NCBI GenBank assembly: GCA_018812485.1
Contig: JAHJDO010000017.1
Coordinates: forward strand, 1-42,350
Source: a bacterium
GTDB taxonomy: Bacteria; JAHJDO01
DNA: 42,350 nt
Reading direction: 5' to 3'
This document shows, piece by piece, positions 11,484 through 37,604 of this stretch. Position 1 is the stretch's first letter. Each line of letters begins with the position of its first letter. The notes beneath the pieces were generated by a model. That model worked only from the letters and a program-made list of their open reading frames with translations, searched no databases and had not been told where the DNA came from. The translations under genes and the position numbers were made by a program.

Positions 11484-13418
11484 TCACTCAATATCTATCC
11501 AAACAGGAGAAGACCATCCCCTCTCCCAATCTGCTTGAATTACCCTTACGTAATAATAAACAAAGGAATGATCTTTTGCATTAATTGCAATAGAGTTAAG
11601 ATTGCTGTTATCCTCAAATTCAAACTCACATACATATTCATCTTTTTTAGGAACAAATGTTTTGAAATCTTCTCCATTTCTGACCAGAATTATTCTTTCT
11701 ATTCTGTTTGTTCCCGCAGTAAATATCTTAATATTCCTGACTTCTTTTTCTTTAAGATTAAATTCTTCACCCATTTTATGTCCATTTATAGAAAAATCTA
11801 TTATCATCCTCACACCTGTTGTGGCATAGCACCGTCTTGCCTGCAGTGCCTGAAAAACAGATCCTCTGGTAAGCTCTTCCGCATATACACACGCAAGACC
11901 ACTGTTGGCATAGCAAAGCTGTGGGGGCTGTTCCTGAATAATACTTCCCGGCATGCCGAAATGTGTATCGCTTGATCCTATAAATCCTGTACGAAAACCC
12001 AACCTTAAGGCATCCTGGACAAAATGTCCTTTGCTATAATCTGCAATTGCTCGAAAATTACCTTCATATTCTGAAACTCCCCATTTTGAACATATTTCTA
12101 CTAATCTTATATCATCTGTAGGAATTTTCTCCCAGTTTGTATATGCGCCAGTATATGCAGGGGCGCTTGAATGATGAGGAATAACTAAAACATCTTTATT
12201 TTTTAACGATGAGAGGAGACGCTCAGGTGAACAAGTTTTAGGATTTGAGGGTCTTAACAAAGGCGCCTTGTCTGCCGAATAATAACTATTTAAATCCCCA
12301 AAAGATTCAGATTTGAGTTCATTGCAATTTGGACAACCAACTTTACATTCTTCTCTTCTTCTTTGCCATTCTTGTCCCAAAAAGGTAATAAACTCATTTG
12401 GTTTATTATAATAATTAGTTTTCTCTTGAATTATCTGCCAATCTTCATCGGTGAGAGGGTTTTTATCTCGATAGGAAGGAGGTTCTGGTTTTGAAGAATA
12501 TCCGGTAACAGGCCAATTTATCATACAAGCTGTAGCGCAAAAATCTAATTTTGATACATCCTTACCATAACGAAAATACTCATCAATACCCAACACTCCA
12601 TGGGAAAAACGAACTTTTCCATGAATATCTCCAAAATATAAATAGTATTTATTATTATCAATATAAACAGGATTACTGGTAGCTTTAAAATTTCTTTTTT
12701 TATCTTCCGCTTTAAAATAATGAACTCCCTTTTTATTTATGGGTAACTTTATTTCTTTTTTACCTTTATCAGAAAGAGTAAATTTTAATTTGTGATTATA
12801 ACCAAAATCACTCTTTAATTCTATTTCCCACAAATATTCAGATGCTATGTTGTTCCATCGGTCAAGAGCTTGTATACTTAAATTTATTGGTTTATTTAGA
12901 TCTTGCTTTGAAGTCGCTATTATCTTGAGTTTTTCAGGATGTCCTGAAATTATATTTATAGAGGCGCCGGCATCCAGATATTCTATCTTCCCATCGATTT
13001 TAAACCTAACAAAAAAATTTATCCTTATAGGAAAAGGCAATGTGCTCATATGAAAAGGCGCCCAGGTTTCAGGCTTATGAATTACCAGTAAAACAACATC
13101 TCCTTTTTCTAACTTCCCTTCTATTACTGTAATGGCAATACCATGAGTTTGACTATGTAAATACTGGCTATAGTTTTCCCAGCAGGGTTCAACTTTAATC
13201 TTAGCAGAAGCATTGGTGGAAGATTCTATAAAACCAGGTAGTTCACTATCTTTTGTTTGAGTCTTTATGAACCTATTTTCGCGCCATTCTATAATAAACG
13301 TCTCAGAGGAAAGAATGCTTTGCTCGCCAACTTTATATTGCAGTTTTATATCAAACGTTTCACCCACCTGAACATTTCTTTCAGGCCATACTTTCAATGT
13401 TCCTAATGTTTTATCCAT
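11484..13418 (-). CDS. DUF3604 family protein with PHP-like fold
   Basis: A 644-aa protein. Residues 1-250 form beta-rich domains and the rest matches DUF3604, a metal-dependent, PHP-related domain. Putative metal-site motifs are GDIHGK (Asp264, His266), VIPHHSS (His415, His416) and GSSDTHFG (Asp484, His486). Four cysteines in the CKVGCPNCNEL segment (about 357-367) may add a metal site. No signal peptide was seen. The reaction is unknown for the family; members often sit in sugar or sulfated-compound degradation clusters. GGAGAG before the ATG supports the start. It lies 6 bases from the isomerase ORF boundary and 19 bases after the truncated GNAT. Confidence 0.75.
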   Translation of the reverse strand: MDKTLGTLKVWPERNVQVGETFDIKLQYKVGEQSILSSETFIIEWRENRFIKTQTKDSELPGFIESSTNASAKIKVEPCWENYSQYLHSQTHGIAITVIEGKLEKGDVVLLVIHKPETWAPFHMSTLPFPIRINFFVRFKIDGKIEYLDAGASINIISGHPEKLKIIATSKQDLNKPINLSIQALDRWNNIASEYLWEIELKSDFGYNHKLKFTLSDKGKKEIKLPINKKGVHYFKAEDKKRNFKATSNPVYIDNNKYYLYFGDIHGKVRFSHGVLGIDEYFRYGKDVSKLDFCATACMINWPVTGYSSKPEPPSYRDKNPLTDEDWQIIQEKTNYYNKPNEFITFLGQEWQRRREECKVGCPNCNELKSESFGDLNSYYSADKAPLLRPSNPKTCSPERLLSSLKNKDVLVIPHHSSAPAYTGAYTNWEKIPTDDIRLVEICSKWGVSEYEGNFRAIADYSKGHFVQDALRLGFRTGFIGSSDTHFGMPGSIIQEQPPQLCYANSGLACVYAEELTRGSVFQALQARRCYATTGVRMIIDFSINGHKMGEEFNLKEKEVRNIKIFTAGTNRIERIILVRNGEDFKTFVPKKDEYVCEFEFEDNSNLNSIAINAKDHSFVYYYVRVIQADWERGWSSPVWIDIE

Positions 13419-13437: not shown

Positions 13438-13773
13438 TTATCTATATAGCGGTTTAATATGAGATGATTCTTCATTACAAGTTGTATAATCATGCGTGTA
13501 ACTGCCTTCAGATTTTGCGCTGTGACCATAACCACAAAGCATATCATCAACAATGACAAATATAGTAATCTTCCGTTTGTCTTTGACATCAGATAACGCT
13601 TTGATTAAATCTTCACGTCCCTTTTCTTCATTATAATTAAATCGTCCACACATTACTTTCTCTTCTGAAAGTATCTTATGCATTTTAATGAAATCCGACA
13701 GATCATCCAACCTGGGATAACGAAAAACAACCTGCTTGCCCTTTGCTTCAAATCCCTTCAAAATCTGACACAT
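13438..13773 (-). pseudogene. Truncated GNAT acetyltransferase fragment
   Basis: A frame of 111 aa whose first 85 residues resemble the N-terminal half of a GNAT N-acetyltransferase: VVFRYPRLDDLSDFIKMH, a helical stretch, then ITIFVIVDDMLCGYGH, the strand where GNATs have their VAEDGxxVG segment. The acetyl-CoA loop (Q/R-x-x-G-x-G/A) that should follow is absent, and the last 25 residues look unrelated. The DUF3604 gene begins only 19 bases downstream, so the rest has been deleted. The ATG at 13773, preceded by AAGGAG, overlaps the amidohydrolase 3' end by 26 bases; an ATG at 13806 is possible but has no ribosome site. It could be a small protein with another role, but a decayed gene is more likely. 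Confidence 0.5.
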
Positions 13774-14545
13774 CCTTCTTCTCTCCTTTCCATAGATTGA
13801 CAGCATTTAGCCCTAAAATCTTTTCTTTATCCTTATCGGTTATTTTGGCTTGAAAAATACGACCCAAGTTTGCTCTCGGATCAATCCAGGTAAGGTCTGA
13901 GCCAAAGAGTATCTTTTTACTTCCAACCTCTTTTACCAAGTGTTCAATTAATCCAAAAGAGAAACTGTCTCCGGCCAAATCGAGATAAACATTCTTGTAT
14001 TTCTTAGCCAATGTTATCGCCTGAAGATGACCGTGATAGCGACCACCGCTATGCGCTAAAATAAGCCTTAATTTTGGATATTTATCTAAAACCTGACTAA
14101 AGAGATGAGGCTGGGAAAAAGATTGTCTGGGATTATTTACATCTCTTTCCCAGCTATGAGTTAAAACCGGTAGAGAAAAATTTTCTGCATACTTCCAGAG
14201 AGGGACATATTCATCTACATGGGGAAAAGATTGATGAAATGCTGGATGTATCTTAATCCCTATAAATCTTTTATCATCCCTGTGCTTTTTCATCCAGTAC
14301 AGGCTTTCTTTAATCAGATTGGGATTATAAACAAAATATCCGTATATCCGTTTTTTCCCTTCGTCGAACGCCTTAAGCGTCTCTTTGTAGCCGTAACCAA
14401 ATTCTCCTCCCAGACAGGCCAGATGGCTTGAACAAATTTTATCAATGCCGAGCTTATCCATAATATAAAGTATTTTTTTTATACTTACATCTGGATAATA
14501 AAAATTGGCATCTTTACCTAGATGAGTATGGACATCTATAATCAT
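13748..14545 (-). CDS. Amidohydrolase (COG2159-like) with complete metal site
   Basis: A 265-aa amidohydrolase-fold protein. Metal and catalytic residues visible are the N-terminal H-x-H (His6, His8 in DVHTHLG), His100 in KIHP, His130, His165 in LAHSGG and Asp217 in FGSDLTW. Relatives are decarboxylases, hydrolases and lactonases. The ATG overlaps the stop of the previous gene as TAATG. That gene encodes a related fold lacking H-x-H, and the pair corresponds in order to the two halves of the fused protein at 17866-19482. The substrate could be a sugar lactone or an acyl or aromatic decoration of a glycoside; this is inference. Confidence 0.75.
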   Translation of the reverse strand: MIIDVHTHLGKDANFYYPDVSIKKILYIMDKLGIDKICSSHLACLGGEFGYGYKETLKAFDEGKKRIYGYFVYNPNLIKESLYWMKKHRDDKRFIGIKIHPAFHQSFPHVDEYVPLWKYAENFSLPVLTHSWERDVNNPRQSFSQPHLFSQVLDKYPKLRLILAHSGGRYHGHLQAITLAKKYKNVYLDLAGDSFSFGLIEHLVKEVGSKKILFGSDLTWIDPRANLGRIFQAKITDKDKEKILGLNAVNLWKGEKKDVSDFEGI

Positions 14546-15342
14546 TATCTTTTAATCCCGTTAATAAGGCTCTCTAAATTTACATGTGCTATCTTTTTTT
14601 TATCTTCCCATGAAAACTCACCTTCAGCTACCATCATCATGGATATATCTGGATCATTTAAGGGGAAATTAGTCCCAAAAATTAGTCGCTCAGCCCCAAA
14701 ACGTTTTACAACGTCATCAAGACCGAGATAAGAAATAAGATTGTGAGTTCCAAGATGCAAATTTTTAAATTTAGCTAAGAGGGGAAAATAATTGCGCGCT
14801 TCAAGAAACTCATGATGCCCAATTCCCTCAGCTATGATAGGTAATTCTGAATATCTGTGACATGTCTCATAAATTCCTTGCCAGCCGACCTGTCCTATCC
14901 ATAAAAAGAGAGGAATTCGCCTTGCCTCTAATTCTTTAAGGATTGGGGCAAGCAACCAATCTTTAAAAAGATAACGGTTTGATTTTGGAAGAAGTCTGAC
15001 GCTTACCATCCCCTTAGATAAAGCCTTATCTAAATAGTCTTTTTTTATCTCCCCACAACCAGGTGGAGGCAAAATAAAACTCGCCTGAAGAGATTTTTGT
15101 CCTTTAAGTTTCTTAAGAAGGATTTCGTTGCCTATTATAGGATTATAAGTAGTAGTCATAATATGACTAACGATACCTTTTTTGATACCATAATAGTCCA
15201 TCTCTTTAACTAGTTCCGCTATTCTATCTACGCGTTGGAAACGCCCTTCAGGAGAAGTCCCTAACCAAAGACTACTATCATAGAATTGGAGCTTCTTAAT
15301 CTTTTCTCGATATTTTTTTACTAATCCCTTGATATTTGCCAT
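14545..15342 (-). CDS. Amidohydrolase-like protein lacking metal ligands (pseudo-enzyme subunit)
   Basis: About 265 aa from the ATG at 15342. It has the overall pattern of the amidohydrolase fold (AELVKEMDYYGIKKGIVSH, SVRLLPKSNRYLF, and the last barrel block FGAERLIFGTNFPL), but the N-terminal H-x-H is replaced by FYDSSLWLG and the final catalytic Asp by Asn in GTNFP. It is therefore predicted to be inactive or to use a different chemistry. The protein matches the N-terminal half of the 538-aa fusion, which has lost the same residues. A longer reading from a TTG at 15381 is possible; the GGAG is 15 bases from the ATG, so the start is uncertain. The 3' end overlaps the active amidohydrolase. 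Confidence 0.65.
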   Translation of the reverse strand: MANIKGLVKKYREKIKKLQFYDSSLWLGTSPEGRFQRVDRIAELVKEMDYYGIKKGIVSHIMTTTYNPIIGNEILLKKLKGQKSLQASFILPPPGCGEIKKDYLDKALSKGMVSVRLLPKSNRYLFKDWLLAPILKELEARRIPLFLWIGQVGWQGIYETCHRYSELPIIAEGIGHHEFLEARNYFPLLAKFKNLHLGTHNLISYLGLDDVVKRFGAERLIFGTNFPLNDPDISMMMVAEGEFSWEDKKKIAHVNLESLINGIKR

Positions 15343-15361
15343 AGTGGCTGATTTATCTCCT

Positions 15362-15430
15362 CTAAGTCCTGAACTCACCAAACAATTTAAGACGAGCGTC
15401 CTTCGAAGATTTTAAAATTACACTTTTCAT
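15362..15430 (-). other. Possible 22-codon leader ORF
   Basis: In the only sizeable gap inside the large operon (15343-15480) a minus-strand ATG at 15430, with GGGAGAG 11 bases upstream, opens a frame of 22 codons (MKSVILKSSKDARLKLFGEF and two more) ending in TAG at 15362. It resembles the first residues of a zinc alcohol dehydrogenase only vaguely. It may be a gene remnant, a leader or chance. No promoter or hairpin terminator was evident in this gap. Confidence 0.2.
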
Positions 15431-15480
15431 AACTATTAAAACTCTCCCTCGTGCCTGAAAATATTTAAGAGTTGGAATGT

Positions 15481-17850
15481 TTAATTGCATCTTAAACGAG
15501 TAATACCTGTTCCTGCTATTTTCTTTGGACAACCCTTAATATCAATTTCTGCTTTCAGTCCTTTTGGGACGGTAAGTTTAATATCTATATACTTATTCTT
15601 TCTTTTCCACTCTACCTCAATGAGACCTGAAGGGGTAGGAACTTTCCCTTTTACATAATTAAGATTTAAGAACTTCGGAGAAAATTGGAATTTCCTCCAA
15701 CCAGCTGATATGGGATGTACTCCGAGAACATGTTTTGATAAAAAATATGTTGGATGTGCTGACCATCCATGACAGCATGACCAGAGAACATCATTCCCTG
15801 CATTCCAGTTTTCCCACCATGTTGTTGCGTCTTTCCTTAACATATCTCCCCATTTTCCCTTAATACAATCCACAACCTCTCTTTCTCTGCCGATTTTCAT
15901 AAGCGCCCAGATAATATAGAAATAAAAATATGGAGATGCTGTCATTATTTGTGTTTTAGGATTATAAATACCTTCCAAAATCGCTTTTTTAACTTCCTCT
16001 GTATACTTTAATCCGCTAAGAACAGCCAATGAATTTGAGTGCTGGCTGATTTGGTCTATTTGTTTGTTACTATCAGAATCAAACGCTTCTATCCAGAGAT
16101 TTTTATCCTTTGACCAGAAGTGCTTTTCTATCGCTTTTTTAAGCTTAAGGTACTGCTGAGAAAGGTTTTTAGAATCTTTCCCTATTATCTTGAATATTTT
16201 TATAGCTGTTTCCAATGCTAACAGATAAAGCATATTAAAGGTTGCAGATAAATGTTTCTTATCCAGTTTTGCCCAGTCTAAGAATAGCCAGTACCTTGGA
16301 GTAGGACCTAGTAAATATTTTTTGCCAGCATGTTTCTGAAAAAAATCGAGGATTCTAAGCATAACAGGATAGCACTCTTTCAATAATGATTTATCCCCTG
16401 TAAATAAATAGTAATTATGAATGCTGATAAACCAGATAAGATTATAATCAGGATTAATACAGCGGTACCTATCCGAAGGTGCTATTCCAAATAATAGTCC
16501 TTCAAAAGTTTGAGATTGAGCAAACTGTTTTAGCCCTCTTCTAATTAGATATGGATCCCCGAAAGTATAATAATTAACAAGACTCTGTATCATCATATCG
16601 CTCAGCCATTGAGTTTGTTCACGCCATGGACAATCAACATAAGCATCAGACATGCATTTTCTAACTGTATATTTCCCCACATCCCATATCTTATTAAGCA
16701 GTTTATCAGAACATTCAAAATCACCAATTTCTGAAACCGGATATTCAATAGAATTCAAGCCGATATATTCAATCTCTACAGGTCTTCTAACACATCTTGC
16801 TACTAATAATAGATACCTTAATCCTCTGAACGAGAAAGTTTCAAACTCCTGTATACCCTTTTTTGTAATATATCTATCCATAAAAGCTACCTTACTGCCC
16901 TTGTTTGGAGGATGTATTAAGGGCTTACTATCCTCTATCTTCTCTGCATATACAAAATCAAATATTTCGCCACCATCTGCCTTATTTATTTTTAATTGCA
17001 GGCATCCTGACACTTCCTTTCCAAAATCTATTAACATACTGCTAAACTTATTCTCCTCATTTGGCAATATTGTTGTTACAGTTTTATTCGGTTTAAGAAC
17101 ATTCTCCTGATTTTTAAATAATATCTTCTGCGTTTTGTGCAGCTTCTCTTCATACAGCACATCAGAAAGTTTAGAGCTGTCTAGATAATCCTTATGATTT
17201 TTCCCAATATATTGAGCTACAATTTGTTTTGCATTTACTGTGCATTCCCTAAGCATGGGAATCCCTCTTTCCTCCATTGATTCCCATGGCAGAGTATAAA
17301 TAGGACCAACAATTGTTGCATTTTCCCAGTTGTCATCATTAAAATTTGCTTTATTCCAGCTTATCTCTTCCAGTCTTGAGTCAAAAACTTCCTGAAAGCC
17401 TGTTTGAACTGAGGTTCTCTTGGTATTTCTCTTATATGCATTAACATCTTTAACCTTCCAGCTGGAATCAGTGTCAATATTGATGCAACTTCCATTTTTA
17501 AGTAAAATATCCCCATCCACTATAAAACCAGCTCTCCATCTATGAATATAGCTAAATGTAGATTCTCCATATTGATGAACCATAATAGCCATAACATTCT
17601 TGCCGATTTTCAAATATGGCAGGATATTCACAGTATCAAATGACTGTTTCCATGGATAGCATCTGGCAGGACCTCTCGATACATATCTGCCATTGATCCA
17701 CAGCTTATACCTTGAATCCGCTGATACTCTAATAACAATTTTTTCTACATTAGTTGGAATATTGAACTGCTTACGGCCATATAAATACTTATTTCTAATA
17801 TCATAAGCTTCATTAGCCCATACCCATTTTGCAGACCATTCCTTTTGCAT
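15481..17850 (-). CDS. GH78 alpha-L-rhamnosidase
   Basis: A 789-aa inverting alpha-L-rhamnosidase of family GH78, with no signal peptide and so cytoplasmic. N-terminal beta-sandwich domains (YKLWINGRYVSRGPARCYPW) precede the (alpha/alpha)6 barrel. The barrel shows DCPWREQTQWLSD: Asp406, Glu411 (general acid region), Trp415 and Asp418, the conserved GH78 substrate cluster. TTWWENWNAG gives Glu680, the likely general base, followed by HGWSAHPTYFLSKHVLGV, the usual C-terminal block. It removes terminal rhamnose from glycosides or oligosaccharides. It follows the double amidohydrolase by 15 bases. The final codons are duplicated at 7327-7347. Confidence 0.9.
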   Translation of the reverse strand: MQKEWSAKWVWANEAYDIRNKYLYGRKQFNIPTNVEKIVIRVSADSRYKLWINGRYVSRGPARCYPWKQSFDTVNILPYLKIGKNVMAIMVHQYGESTFSYIHRWRAGFIVDGDILLKNGSCINIDTDSSWKVKDVNAYKRNTKRTSVQTGFQEVFDSRLEEISWNKANFNDDNWENATIVGPIYTLPWESMEERGIPMLRECTVNAKQIVAQYIGKNHKDYLDSSKLSDVLYEEKLHKTQKILFKNQENVLKPNKTVTTILPNEENKFSSMLIDFGKEVSGCLQLKINKADGGEIFDFVYAEKIEDSKPLIHPPNKGSKVAFMDRYITKKGIQEFETFSFRGLRYLLLVARCVRRPVEIEYIGLNSIEYPVSEIGDFECSDKLLNKIWDVGKYTVRKCMSDAYVDCPWREQTQWLSDMMIQSLVNYYTFGDPYLIRRGLKQFAQSQTFEGLLFGIAPSDRYRCINPDYNLIWFISIHNYYLFTGDKSLLKECYPVMLRILDFFQKHAGKKYLLGPTPRYWLFLDWAKLDKKHLSATFNMLYLLALETAIKIFKIIGKDSKNLSQQYLKLKKAIEKHFWSKDKNLWIEAFDSDSNKQIDQISQHSNSLAVLSGLKYTEEVKKAILEGIYNPKTQIMTASPYFYFYIIWALMKIGREREVVDCIKGKWGDMLRKDATTWWENWNAGNDVLWSCCHGWSAHPTYFLSKHVLGVHPISAGWRKFQFSPKFLNLNYVKGKVPTPSGLIEVEWKRKNKYIDIKLTVPKGLKAEIDIKGCPKKIAGTGITRLRCN

Positions 17851-17865
17851 AATGTATTCTTTTAC

Positions 17866-19482
17866 CTAAATTTTAAATAGTTTAGCGGCATTTAAGCCCA
17901 GGATTTTTCTTTTATCTTCGTTACTAATTTTTGAATAGACTATAACACCTAAAGCTAAATTAAAGTCAATGAATGTACAATCTGATCCAAAAAGTATTCG
18001 ATCTGGCCCAATTTGATCCACAGCATATTCCAACAGATTTTCATTCTTAAACCCCAAACCTGAAGTATCTAAATATATATTTTTTCTTTTTTTGGCAATT
18101 GGGATACTTTTTTTTACTCCTTCAACATTATTACCAGAATGCCCCAGGATAATCGGAACATTAGGATATTTCCCCGCTATATCATCAAATTGCTCCGGGT
18201 CACTATAAGGTTCACCAAGTGTTGTATGGGAAAGGATTACTGTCCGTCTTTTGTCAGCTATTTCCCACATTGGTTTCAATCTAGCATCATATGCATAAAA
18301 TTTATCTACCCTGGGATGTATTTTTATCCCTTTCATCTTTAAAACCTCGATATAATAATGTAAAACTTCAACAATATTTCCTGCAAAATTAGGATCTATT
18401 CTACAAAAACCAATAATTTTATCTGGATATTTTTTTACAAGATCAGCAATTATATTATTCCCTTTTCTATAATCTCCTCCCCTGAAAAAATTAATACATA
18501 ATCTACTAATTCCAACAGTATCTATTAATTCAAACACACTTTTTACATCCGATTTTGGAGCATAATGAGTTCCGTATTCACCTAAATGAAAGTGACAGTC
18601 AATAATCAAACTATTTGATAGAGATTCATTAAAACGTTTTTTAATTGATGTAACTTTTTTGCCTTTTATATGACTACTTGAAAACTTAATTTTTACATTA
18701 TTTATTATTCGTTTTAAATTATTACCAGCTATTAATGCTTTTTCTCTTAAAGTAATATTTGCATTGTTTATAATCATTATTGATGCAGGGTGTATGCTGG
18801 AAACATTCAATCCATGCTGCATTGTGCCAAACAAAAGACGCTCCGCTCCAAAATACTCACACATTTCTTCTACTGCGTTTTGAGTTCCTTCATTCCCAAT
18901 AGCAACATAGATATTTTTGAATTTGGAAAGCAAATTGTATATATCCCTTAAATAACCAAATGGAGGCATTAGAATAAATGGTGTATTTTTAAACTTTTTA
19001 CAGATTTGGGGTAATTCCTGGTGCTCAGGAAGTATTACAGGGATATTATATTTATCAAGTATGGAAAAGGTTTCATAGCATGAAGATAACTGAAACTTCT
19101 GTAAATGAGGAAATAATCTTACTGCTCTAATATTATTATTTTTTATTTCTCTTATTAATTCTTCTGGATGTGGCACTTCACATGTTTCATGCGGCAGGAG
19201 AACCCAGCATCCAAATAATCTATCAGGATATTTTTTTATTTCTTCACAAAGTTCTTTATTCCCTTTTGAAGGAGAGTAAAAGATTGCATCACGATGATAT
19301 ACAAGAGCTTTGTCTATACCATAAGAATCCATTTCCTTAATCAGCTCTGAAGTATTTTTACAATGATGTAGCTCGCCTGTTTCTGGTGACAGTACAGGGA
19401 TTCCAATTATGCCGTTAATATCAAAGAAACTTATTGATTCTTGTATCTTGCTGTTATCTTTACTTATTTTGTAGTTACTCAT
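17866..19482 (-). CDS. Fused double amidohydrolase: inactive N half, active C half
   Basis: A 538-aa protein made of two amidohydrolase folds joined by a lysine-rich linker at about 265-290. The N half (20-262) starts FFDINGIIG in place of D-x-H-x-H and ends FGAERLLFGTMQHG, so it lacks both the first metal ligands and the final Asp. The C half keeps His297, His299, His389 (KIHP), His419, His448 (LGHSG) and Asp501 (FGSDCTF). Its halves correspond, in order, to the adjacent genes 14545-15342 and 13748-14545. AAGG precedes the ATG by 9 bases. The substrate is unknown; decarboxylase or lactonase chemistry is known in the family. Confidence 0.75.
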   Translation of the reverse strand: MSNYKISKDNSKIQESISFFDINGIIGIPVLSPETGELHHCKNTSELIKEMDSYGIDKALVYHRDAIFYSPSKGNKELCEEIKKYPDRLFGCWVLLPHETCEVPHPEELIREIKNNNIRAVRLFPHLQKFQLSSCYETFSILDKYNIPVILPEHQELPQICKKFKNTPFILMPPFGYLRDIYNLLSKFKNIYVAIGNEGTQNAVEEMCEYFGAERLLFGTMQHGLNVSSIHPASIMIINNANITLREKALIAGNNLKRIINNVKIKFSSSHIKGKKVTSIKKRFNESLSNSLIIDCHFHLGEYGTHYAPKSDVKSVFELIDTVGISRLCINFFRGGDYRKGNNIIADLVKKYPDKIIGFCRIDPNFAGNIVEVLHYYIEVLKMKGIKIHPRVDKFYAYDARLKPMWEIADKRRTVILSHTTLGEPYSDPEQFDDIAGKYPNVPIILGHSGNNVEGVKKSIPIAKKRKNIYLDTSGLGFKNENLLEYAVDQIGPDRILFGSDCTFIDFNLALGVIVYSKISNEDKRKILGLNAAKLFKI

Positions 19483-27008: not shown

Positions 27009-27578
27009 TTAATAATTTGAGCCATAGATATCATTACATACCTTAGCCCACGAAACATGTCCGTCCAGCCACAAAATATTTCCTCCGTCGTTATGTATAG
27101 TTCTAAGTCTATTTGCATTAGGCCATGTTTGAATAACTGTAGAATCAAGCATATACATCGTTTCTGATGGATTTGCCTTTCCATAAGATTTTATATTTTT
27201 CCCATTATTATTGAGTGTCATCCCATAAATATAAACATCGTCTCCACCAACTGGGCAGAAATAGGGTGAACTAGTATCATTCCAATCGTCAAGGGCTACT
27301 CCAATGTATTGCTGATTCAGTTGGTGACGCCAGTCTATTACACCATTATTCTGCACAGGAAAAAAACCATCATGGTTGTCAAAGTAGATCATACTGGCTA
27401 TCCCAAGTTGCCTGAGGTGGCTGATGCAGACTGTTCTTTTTGCTAATGCCCTTGCTTCCTGTAATCCTGGTAGCAGCATAGATGCAAGCAGAGCAATGAT
27501 GGCTATTACAACAAGAAGTTCTATTAACGTGAAAGAGCTCCTGCTTCCCCAAATCCTTCTTATTTTATCTATTAACAT
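27009..27578 (-). CDS. Type II-style prepilin with C-terminal H-x9-DG motif
   Basis: A 189-aa pseudopilin-like protein. [28 protein letters not shown] at 15-42 is the prepilin peptidase recognition site and transmembrane helix, with Phe16 as first mature residue and Glu20 at position +5; residue -1 is Ser rather than the usual Gly. The C-terminal part ends with His162, nine residues, then Asp172-Gly173, the H-x9-DG motif of proteins numerous in Lentisphaerota and Planctomycetota. A strong AAGGGGGTG precedes the ATG. It sits between a RhaI-like isomerase and the secreted LamG protein, which suggests help in display or secretion at the cell surface, although no partner machinery is nearby. Confidence 0.85.
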
Positions 27579-30151: not shown

Positions 30152-31489
30152 TCACCCTCGCAATACTGTTTTTATTGAATCATAAAATATACTTATAACC
30201 TCATCTGCCTCTTCTTTGTCAATTATCAAAGGAGGTTTTATTTTTAAAACATTTTTTCTTACTCCACCCAGCCCAAAAATCACTCCTCTCTTTAAACCTT
30301 CTTTTCTTATATTTATAGTTTTTTCTTCAATTGGCACTTTAGAGACAGGGTCTTTCACAAATTCAATTCCAATATGTAACCCTGTTCCCCTTATGTCTCC
30401 AATTTCCGGGAATTCTTTCTGTATCTCTGAGACTCTTGAACATATGTAATTACCCATTTTATTTGTATTTTCTAAAATATGATTTTTCTGGATAATTTCT
30501 ATTTGTTTCAAGGCTGCTACCTGCCCAATAGTTGTATTTGCAAAAGTATGGAGTTCTTCAGCTTTTGGTCCAAAGCTTTTTAAATCCTCACTAACTATAA
30601 TAGCTGCTATTGGAAATCCTGATCCCAATCCTTTGCCTAAAGCAATAATATCAGGTGTAATACCATAGTAATCTGCTGCAAAAAACCTCCCTATTCTGCA
30701 GTATGTTTGAACCTCATCAAATATTAAAGGAACTTCAAATTCATCGCATATTTTTCTGATTTCTGCTAAGTATTTTCTAGGGCATGGTATTTGTCCAGCG
30801 CTTGCTTGAATTGGTTCTACAATCACCCCTGCTGCCGGTCCATTAATTCCCCGTTCTAAGGTTATTTTTAACATTTTTGCACACATCAAATTACATTTCT
30901 CCGGTTTTTGGTCAAAATAGCACCTGTAACAATAAGGATTGGGAACTCTTATAAAAGCATTTGTTAGGTTTAGGTAATTTGCACCTCCAGCAAAATCTCC
31001 TGAAGCTTTTGTCGAAATCCATGATGAACCCATTGTGCCTAATGTTGTGCCATGATATGCATCATAAAGACATATAAAATACCTTGATGCAGGTCTATTT
31101 GTATGAGCAATTTTCATCGCTGCTTCAATTGCTGGGCCTCCACCAACAGTAAATGAAACCTTGTTTAATTTACCAGGTGCAAGTTCCGAAAGTTTTTTTG
31201 CAAGAGCAAGTCTTGGCAAAGTACCAAAACCTTGATGAATGTGTGTTAAATAGTTATGTGCATGTTCCGAAACTGCATCTATTATCTCCTTATTGGAATA
31301 CCCGAGATATAATGCCCAGCTTTGGGAAGTACAGTCTATGTAAGATTTACCATCAACATCTTCAACCCTTACACCTTTCCCCTTTAAAAGCACAGGGCCT
31401 GGAGTTCCTCCTCCTAACATGAGATGCTTTTGATAATCTTCTATCCCTCTTTTTTGTATTTCTAGATATTCACTTATTACTGAATCCAT
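30152..31489 (-). CDS. Class III aminotransferase (aspartate aminotransferase family)
   Basis: A 445-aa PLP enzyme. The PLP lysine is Lys286 in IIALGKGLGSGFP; Asp258 in IFDEVQ holds the PLP ring nitrogen; VGGGPAIEAAMK and LYDAYHGTT complete the fold type I site. Residues 187-203 carry a C-x2-C-x8-C-x3-C cluster, seen in a subgroup of class III enzymes. The substrate may be an amino sugar precursor or omega-amino acid and cannot be read from the sequence. GGAG precedes the ATG; transcription should start near 31513. It is the first gene of the large minus-strand operon, an unusual leading gene for a glycoside cluster. Confidence 0.8.
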   Translation of the reverse strand: MDSVISEYLEIQKRGIEDYQKHLMLGGGTPGPVLLKGKGVRVEDVDGKSYIDCTSQSWALYLGYSNKEIIDAVSEHAHNYLTHIHQGFGTLPRLALAKKLSELAPGKLNKVSFTVGGGPAIEAAMKIAHTNRPASRYFICLYDAYHGTTLGTMGSSWISTKASGDFAGGANYLNLTNAFIRVPNPYCYRCYFDQKPEKCNLMCAKMLKITLERGINGPAAGVIVEPIQASAGQIPCPRKYLAEIRKICDEFEVPLIFDEVQTYCRIGRFFAADYYGITPDIIALGKGLGSGFPIAAIIVSEDLKSFGPKAEELHTFANTTIGQVAALKQIEIIQKNHILENTNKMGNYICSRVSEIQKEFPEIGDIRGTGLHIGIEFVKDPVSKVPIEEKTINIRKEGLKRGVIFGLGGVRKNVLKIKPPLIIDKEEADEVISIFYDSIKTVLRG

Positions 31490-36249: not shown

Positions 36250-36299
36250 GAAGACTGTGATGTAATACCTGAATTTAAAAGATGAAAGGAGAACAAAGA

Positions 36300-37604
36300 A
36301 TGCTAGACAAAAAAGCCCATGAGGCTACTGGAAGCAAACCGACAAGTGATAAGCCGGATGACGGCGTTACACTAAGAGTTCCCTACTCTTATTTTGGCGC
36401 AATGTATGATGAAGAAGAGGAAAAAGCAGTTCTTGTGGCAATGAAGCAGGACAGGCAGACAAAAGGACCTCATCTGGAAAAATTTCAGAAAGAGTTTGCA
36501 GTTATGTGCGGAGTAAAACATGCTCTTGCAGTCTCAAATTGTACTACTGCGATGCATGCAGCAACTCAGGCTTTTGGTATTAAAGAAGGAGATGAAGTAA
36601 TTATTACACCGAATACTTTTATTGCTACTTCTCTTGTGCTTTTAAAAGAAGGAGCAAAACCTGTATATTCAGATATTGATCCTAAAACATATAACATTGA
36701 CCCAAAACAGATAGAAGATAAGATAACTCCTAAAACAAAAGCGATTTACGTCGTTCATTATGGCGGGCAGATGTGTGATATGGATCCCATTATGGAGATA
36801 GCAAAAAAACATAATCTCTATGTTCTTGAAGACTGCGCTCATACACCCGGAGCAGAATACAAAGGAAGAAAAGCAGGAAATATCGGAGATATTGGATGTT
36901 TCAGTTTTCATTCTTTAAAAAACATGACTACACTAGGTGAGGGAGGCATGGTTACAACTAATAATGATGAAATAGCTGCAAGAGTAGCAAGGCTTCGCGC
37001 AATGAATACAGCAACATGGGACTTCCCTGAAGGGCAAAGTACATTCAGTTTTGCAGGATACACATTGACAAAAACAGGTATATCCGATTACTGGATTCCC
37101 TCGCATCATGATGTGATAGATGACAATGGAAAGTGGGGAAATAACTACAGAATGAATGAAACCCAGGCTGCAGTCGGGATATGTCAGCTCAAAAAGTTAA
37201 AAAAGATGAATGAAAAACGGAGGGAATTCGGGCGTTATATTAATGAAGCAATAAAAGATATTGAAGGCATAACTCCAGTATATGAAGACCCAAACTGTTA
37301 CCATGTTTATCATCTCTATACTCTTTGTGTTGAAGAAGAAATGGGCATAGAAAGAGATGCTTTTATACGTGTTCTTTACAGAGAGTATGGGATTCAACCA
37401 ATATTGCACTATCAGCCAACATATCACTATACCGGATTGAAAAAGCTGGGTTATCCTGATAAACTCTGTCCAATTGCAGAAAAATTCTTTTACAAAAGAG
37501 AACTAAATCTTCCCATACATCCGAGATTAACAAAGGAAGACTGTGATATAATGATTGAAGGAATTAAGAAAGCAGCAGAAAAAGCGCGAAGATGCAAGCG
37601 CTAG
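36300..37604 (+). CDS. DegT/DnrJ/EryC1/StrS aminotransferase
   Basis: A 434-aa PLP-dependent sugar aminotransferase. GSALAVSNCTTAMHAA-like, ITPNTFIATS, VLEDCAHTPGAEYKG and FSFHSLKNMTTLGEGG (Lys207 forms the internal aldimine) are diagnostic of the family. It transfers an amino group, usually from glutamate, to a keto-sugar; the family also includes dehydrating members. The frame opens at 36282, but AAAGGAG lies between that ATG and the one at 36300, which is therefore the start. Its TAG stop overlaps the stop of the convergent aldolase gene at CTAG (37601-37604). The substrate is unknown. Confidence 0.85.
   Translation: MLDKKAHEATGSKPTSDKPDDGVTLRVPYSYFGAMYDEEEEKAVLVAMKQDRQTKGPHLEKFQKEFAVMCGVKHALAVSNCTTAMHAATQAFGIKEGDEVIITPNTFIATSLVLLKEGAKPVYSDIDPKTYNIDPKQIEDKITPKTKAIYVVHYGGQMCDMDPIMEIAKKHNLYVLEDCAHTPGAEYKGRKAGNIGDIGCFSFHSLKNMTTLGEGGMVTTNNDEIAARVARLRAMNTATWDFPEGQSTFSFAGYTLTKTGISDYWIPSHHDVIDDNGKWGNNYRMNETQAAVGICQLKKLKKMNEKRREFGRYINEAIKDIEGITPVYEDPNCYHVYHLYTLCVEEEMGIERDAFIRVLYREYGIQPILHYQPTYHYTGLKKLGYPDKLCPIAEKFFYKRELNLPIHPRLTKEDCDIMIEGIKKAAEKARRCKR

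Follow-up and report, generated by a model that had tools for sequence, protein, structure and literature searches.

Paired amidohydrolase barrels of the PF04909 type, one with a full metal site and the other without it, are encoded in many bacteria and in at least one archaeon, and the barrel that has lost its metal ligands appears to be a required partner of the working barrel, because it is always encoded adjacent or fused to it. Each of these loci probably codes for a two-barrel, ACMSD-like PF04909 metallo-hydrolase or lyase, in which the dead barrel would be an obligate partner and which would be the asymmetric descendant of an ACMSD-like dimer.

The window (the whole stretch of 42,350 nucleotides analyzed) contains two loci of this kind, composed of the following elements:

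14545 to 15342, minus strand: dead (pseudo) amidohydrolase barrel of the split pair (P0002), 265 aa, PF04909 E 7e-7.
14543 to 14547, minus strand: TAATG junction, read from the sequence, in which the P0002 stop and the P0003 start overlap by 1 base.
13748 to 14545, minus strand: active amidohydrolase barrel of the split pair (P0003), 265 aa, PF04909 E 1e-29.
17866 to 19482, minus strand: fused gene P0001, pseudo barrel followed by active barrel, 538 aa, PF04909 in two stretches.
18691 to 19431, minus strand: pseudo half of P0001, residues about 18-264, 0/5 ligands.
18610 to 18690, minus strand: linker of P0001, residues about 265-291, partly of lower confidence (AF2 pLDDT 53-79 around residues 261-290).
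17869 to 18609, minus strand: active half of P0001, residues 292-538, ligands H297, H299, H419, H448 and D501.

These three genes had been described in the initial annotation and all were found where it had placed them, the split genes being adjacent as well as overlapping; an alternative TTG start is possible for P0002 at 15381. Every half in the window exceeds the curated Pfam cut-off of PF04909 (Amidohydro_2). At both loci the ligand-less barrel lies directly upstream of the ligand-complete one (split, 15342 to 13748; fused, 19482 to 17866). In BLASTP comparisons, the first half of P0001 matches P0002 (28% identity, E 2e-22) and its second half matches P0003 (33% identity, E 1e-43), so that the order and the identity of the halves agree between the fused and the split locus, as had been proposed. 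The genome (172 contigs) contains two further pairs, a fused gene coding for 522 aa (contig C101) and a split pair whose genes overlap by 8 bases (contig C127), which makes a total of four.

In the multiple alignment the active halves present the ligand set D-x-H-x-H, a His in beta-5, a His in beta-6 and a final Asp (H6, H8, H130, H165 and D217 in P0003), and the five ligands of P0001 given above are invariant or nearly so among 48 fused proteins. At these five columns the dead halves read S-W-W-G-N (split P0002) and N-I-P-P-M (fused P0001), with none of the five ligands in either case; the absence of the H-x-H and the final Asp from the first halves, already noted from the sequence, is therefore real, and both other His residues are gone as well. 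None of the five ligands is kept in 104 of the 119 dead domains scored and one is kept in the other 15, so that dead halves do not have the ligand set of a competent amidohydrolase; the complete set is found in 112 of 120 active domains, and the beta-6 column is His in 100% of active halves. PF04909 is matched at E 1e-3 or better by 58 of 62 dead halves, and no NCBIfam model matches any of these 62 halves, nor P0001 or P0003. In active halves from two genomes of the genus (L003:538-2106 and L044:4220-5800), FESD replaces the usual FGSD before the final ligand Asp.

Profile searches were carried out over about 500 genomes, most of them metagenome-assembled, and about 100 hit regions were fetched and scored. 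A first profile, made of four dead halves, identified pairs in five other genomes of 59 (G003, which belongs to the same genus, G019, G042, G049 and G050), and a second, wider profile of 12 members gave matches in 32 of 82 genomes of one phylum (E <= 1e-15) and in 39 of 289 genomes of another (E <= 1e-25), as well as in smaller groups. All 118 ligand-less domains of the census have an active partner (55 fused to it, dead half first, 63 adjacent to it and 0 alone), a count in which L194, whose frame is broken, enters twice and which comes from profiles seeded with paired members, so that remote lone members could be missed. The dead gene comes first in 56 of the 63 adjacent pairs and the active gene in the other 7. 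Within this census, pairing of the dead barrel with an active one is obligate. The initial annotation had suspected that an inactive and an active barrel were joined in a conserved obligate partnership; it had suggested looking for neighbouring pairs in other genomes and had named independent occurrence of the halves as an argument against the idea. Many pairs were found, lone ligand-less halves are absent among the 118, and chance is a very poor account of this layout, which is present four times in the window genome itself.

The active clade, too, seems bound to the dead partner, although caution is needed because solo amidohydrolases are common among more distant sequences. Of the matches to the active profile in 81 genomes of one phylum, nearly all those above about 140 bits lie at loci with a known dead partner, two matches near 140 bits that were not previously known as pairs (L265 and L266) turned out to be pairs on fetching, and solo relatives score clearly lower, at about 107 bits or less; two high-scoring matches at contig ends (L267 and L268) were left out of the pairing judgement.

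Six named loci were obtained by a pattern search derived from the fused alignment, with carriers that include Candidatus Desantisbacteria, a Lentisphaeria bacterium and a Hydrogenedentes bacterium; other named carriers are Subdoligranulum variabile, Nonomuraea gerenzanensis and the archaeon Halomontanus rarus. The latter has two fused proteins of the dead-active order and a third one, adjoining one of them, of the active-dead order (WP_276256064.1); this reversed gene is located on a plasmid (L286:7676-9364), with a normal-order fused gene beside it. At another locus (L232:4116-5948) a fused dead-active protein carries an apparent twin-arginine (Tat) signal, SRRNFMKRLGTGSLALTLA, suggesting that at least this member of the pair family may be exported.

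The dead halves have a single origin and have evolved jointly with the active halves. A single branch (SH-aLRT 97) separates all dead halves from the rest in a tree built on 54 dead domains, 54 active ones and 19 others. When the ligand columns were removed and a mixture model was used, two members strayed in a quick search, and the tree with the dead halves in one clade was 22 log-likelihood units better (AU p 0.82). A mirror-tree comparison of 52 dead and 52 active halves gave r = 0.67, with 0 of 999 permutations as high and 23 of 49 splits shared. The dN/dS of the dead half, about 0.04-0.22 in close pairs with measurable dS, is similar to that of the active half, and purifying selection acts on dead and active halves with about equal strength. 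Fusion is polyphyletic and found in both orders, with at least six changes of fusion state on either tree. The fused copy of the window is placed with the fused C101 copy of its own genome, apart from the split copy, which makes the two window copies old paralogues and rules out a recent local duplication in the operon; the earlier view that the pair was apparently duplicated there and then fused or split finds no support. Genome G063 contains a tandem pair with all ligands in both barrels (L276:2118-3598) and a related pair whose first barrel reads FGSG, without the final Asp, and has also lost the Lys of G-x-K-x-HP (L277:244-1834); this looks like a pseudo-enzyme still in the making, possibly a separate and younger case outside the main dead clade.

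AF2, supplied with 48 fused relatives, models P0001 (538 aa) as one confident body (pLDDT 89.9, pTM 0.89, the pTM being a single global value), and the split dead protein P0002 is predicted with a pLDDT of 95.2 and is an amidohydrolase barrel by Foldseek. Two outcomes that had been named beforehand as arguments against a partnership, namely inactive halves that align with unrelated parts of the fold and predicted complexes with no interface, were not seen: alignment, AF2 and Foldseek all give the same fold for the halves, and P0001 is predicted with confidence as one body. Foldseek matches are single amidohydrolase_2 barrels only, with no PDB chain covering both barrels (best TM by query length 0.39), and the dead half searched by itself matches these families too, among them ACMSD (entry 4ifk). 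We infer that the split proteins form a physical complex and that the two barrels are disposed in a dimer-like arrangement.

ACMSD and the gamma-resorcylate and 5-carboxyvanillate decarboxylases share with the active half the PF04909 fold and the metal-ligand pattern (by profile and Foldseek), although their homodimers are built of identical active chains, each about 330 aa long, whereas the barrels of the pairs are of about 250 aa, one of them dead, and often lie in a single chain. The structural-genomics amidohydrolases CAC3332 (3cjp) and BB4693 (3irs) come nearest in size and rank with the best profile matches to both halves, but they are single-barrel chains without assigned function and at most candidates for membership of the pair family. 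In open-licence papers, the literature on paired PF04909 barrels is limited to AibH1H2, the alpha-aminoisobutyrate monooxygenase of Rhodococcus wratislaviensis, a stable heterotetramer with a large interface (PMC7782822, PMC10401708). The initial annotation knew of no described system with this layout; AibH1H2 is one, since its PF04909-type barrels are encoded by neighbouring genes, with AibH2 catalytic and AibH1 regarded as non-catalytic but essential (PMC7782822). It is unlike the pairs, however, in its metal site, in its redox partners and in the condition of the non-catalytic partner's site. AibH1 keeps a mononuclear metal, whereas the dead half of the pairs is devoid of the ligand set. 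The site of AibH2 is dinuclear (Asp, His, His, Glu, Asp, His; PMC7782822), with Glu at the beta-6 position, where the active half, of pattern H-x-H..H..H..D, has His. AibH2 needs a Rieske ferredoxin, whereas the window genome has no match to Rieske PF00355, and no Rieske ferredoxin or reductase family is found among the recurrent neighbours of the pairs. Fusions, in addition, are common in the pair family. An AibH-type (ARO) monooxygenase is ruled out by the metal ligands and the lack of Rieske domains in the genome; AibH chains are also absent from the PDB matches of both half profiles.

In the arrangement that we favour, an obligate two-barrel enzyme, one barrel would bind the metal and catalyze the reaction, and the other, free of ligands, would be kept as its partner, either as a separate subunit encoded by an overlapping gene or as a fused domain. 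The most likely origin would be an ancestral homodimer that was duplicated and then became asymmetric, one copy keeping the metal and the other keeping only the partner role, that is, stabilizing the fold and probably supplying residues that enter or gate the site of its neighbour. In ACMSD, Arg239 from the neighbouring subunit is essential and the monomer is inactive (PMC11650718, PMC9021598). An Arg in the helix after beta-6 (Arg179 of P0001), likened to Arg239 by its position after the beta-6 strand and not by structural superposition, is found in 64% of dead halves by weight versus 14% of active halves, without being invariant, and it is preceded four residues before by W or Y in 72% of dead halves. 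This bias is suggestive, being the pattern expected if only the dead half must lend a residue in an asymmetric dimer, and the dead barrel may perhaps complete the active site in trans.

The dead barrel could instead be a pure scaffold that stabilizes or oligomerizes the active one and gives nothing to its active site, a reading to which we assign a minor but appreciable probability. It is no less compatible with obligate pairing, two fusion orders and purifying selection, the Arg proposed to act in trans is kept by no more than 64% of dead halves, and the authors of the AibH1H2 work count stabilization among the possible roles of AibH1 (PMC7782822). It accounts less well for the conservation of dead halves outside the core (the W/Y and R of the helix after beta-6 and an R in 'VRAVRLFP') and for the active-site residues that cross the interface in known relatives. 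Rather unlikely, but not by as much as the readings that follow, is a regulatory or substrate-binding partner, whose old pocket would bind a sugar-like ligand and allosterically control or feed the active barrel. The beta-1 Asp is retained in 91% of dead halves and Arg/Lys are the commonest residues at the former Lys of 'GIKIHP', as such a pocket might have it, and activation by a dead paralogue is established for the trypanosome AdoMetDC prozyme (PMC5201418); this is an analogue in the way it works, an active partner that needs its dead paralogue, of unrelated fold, eukaryotic and unfused. However, the residues at the lost metal-ligand positions differ widely from clade to clade of dead halves, which gives no sign of a ligand pocket shared among them.

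That the dead barrel is a second enzyme, metal-free or with another residue set, the pair performing two successive steps, is improbable. Metal-independent PF04909 enzymes exist (PMC10811679), but no conserved catalytic residue set is common to the dead halves, whose most conserved positions are structural (D22, G28, N72, P93, P119, G223 and N255). A chance neighbourhood of a decaying paralogue would agree with the loss of all ligands, but pseudogene decay of the dead half is ruled out by the dN/dS, and the pairing of 118 out of 118 domains, in one old clade that spans many phyla and an archaeon, leaves this explanation a negligible probability.

Among the neighbours of the pairs in the window are GH78 and GH106 rhamnosidases, GH42, DUF3604, an FGGY kinase, an HpcH/HpaI aldolase and a URO-D protein; DegT and class III aminotransferases, recognized from the translations, lie at a greater distance (36282-37604 and 30152-31489). 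These two PLP aminotransferase families also recur beside the pairs of other genomes (around L163-L262), DegT at 24 of the 63 loci in one set and class III at 13 of the 34 in the other. The genomes in which DegT genes were counted contain about 1-9 each, and the flanking looks like a strong enrichment against this baseline, which comes from a different phylum and is not a matched control. Because of these neighbouring genes, the pair is suggested to act in the catabolism of sugar derivatives or amino sugars; a rhamnonolactonase function, taken from the window operon, is just a guess because the neighbours differ elsewhere. The DUF3604 protein of the window (11484-13418) adjoins the split pair, and DUF3604 is also found with a fused pair of Halomontanus rarus (L285:1-1691). 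Within the glycoside operon, 27009-27578 codes for a short protein with a type IV pilin-like N-terminus. With somewhat less than even confidence, we propose that the pairs constitute a widespread, unnamed family of bacteria and archaea in which the dead barrel would be specialized in donating substrate-binding residues, fusion would have taken place repeatedly and independently, and the reaction would be a new one in the degradation of sugar or amino-sugar derivatives.

Pseudoenzyme partners are usually recognised singly. The pairs offer a natural series for asking why a dead enzyme copy is kept, with split and fused forms, each in two orders, and an intact tandem (L276) beside one that lacks the Asp (L277). 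The present annotation of the pair proteins, if any, is only 'amidohydrolase family protein', so that a dead half will probably be taken for an enzyme, and an active half produced without its partner may seem inactive.
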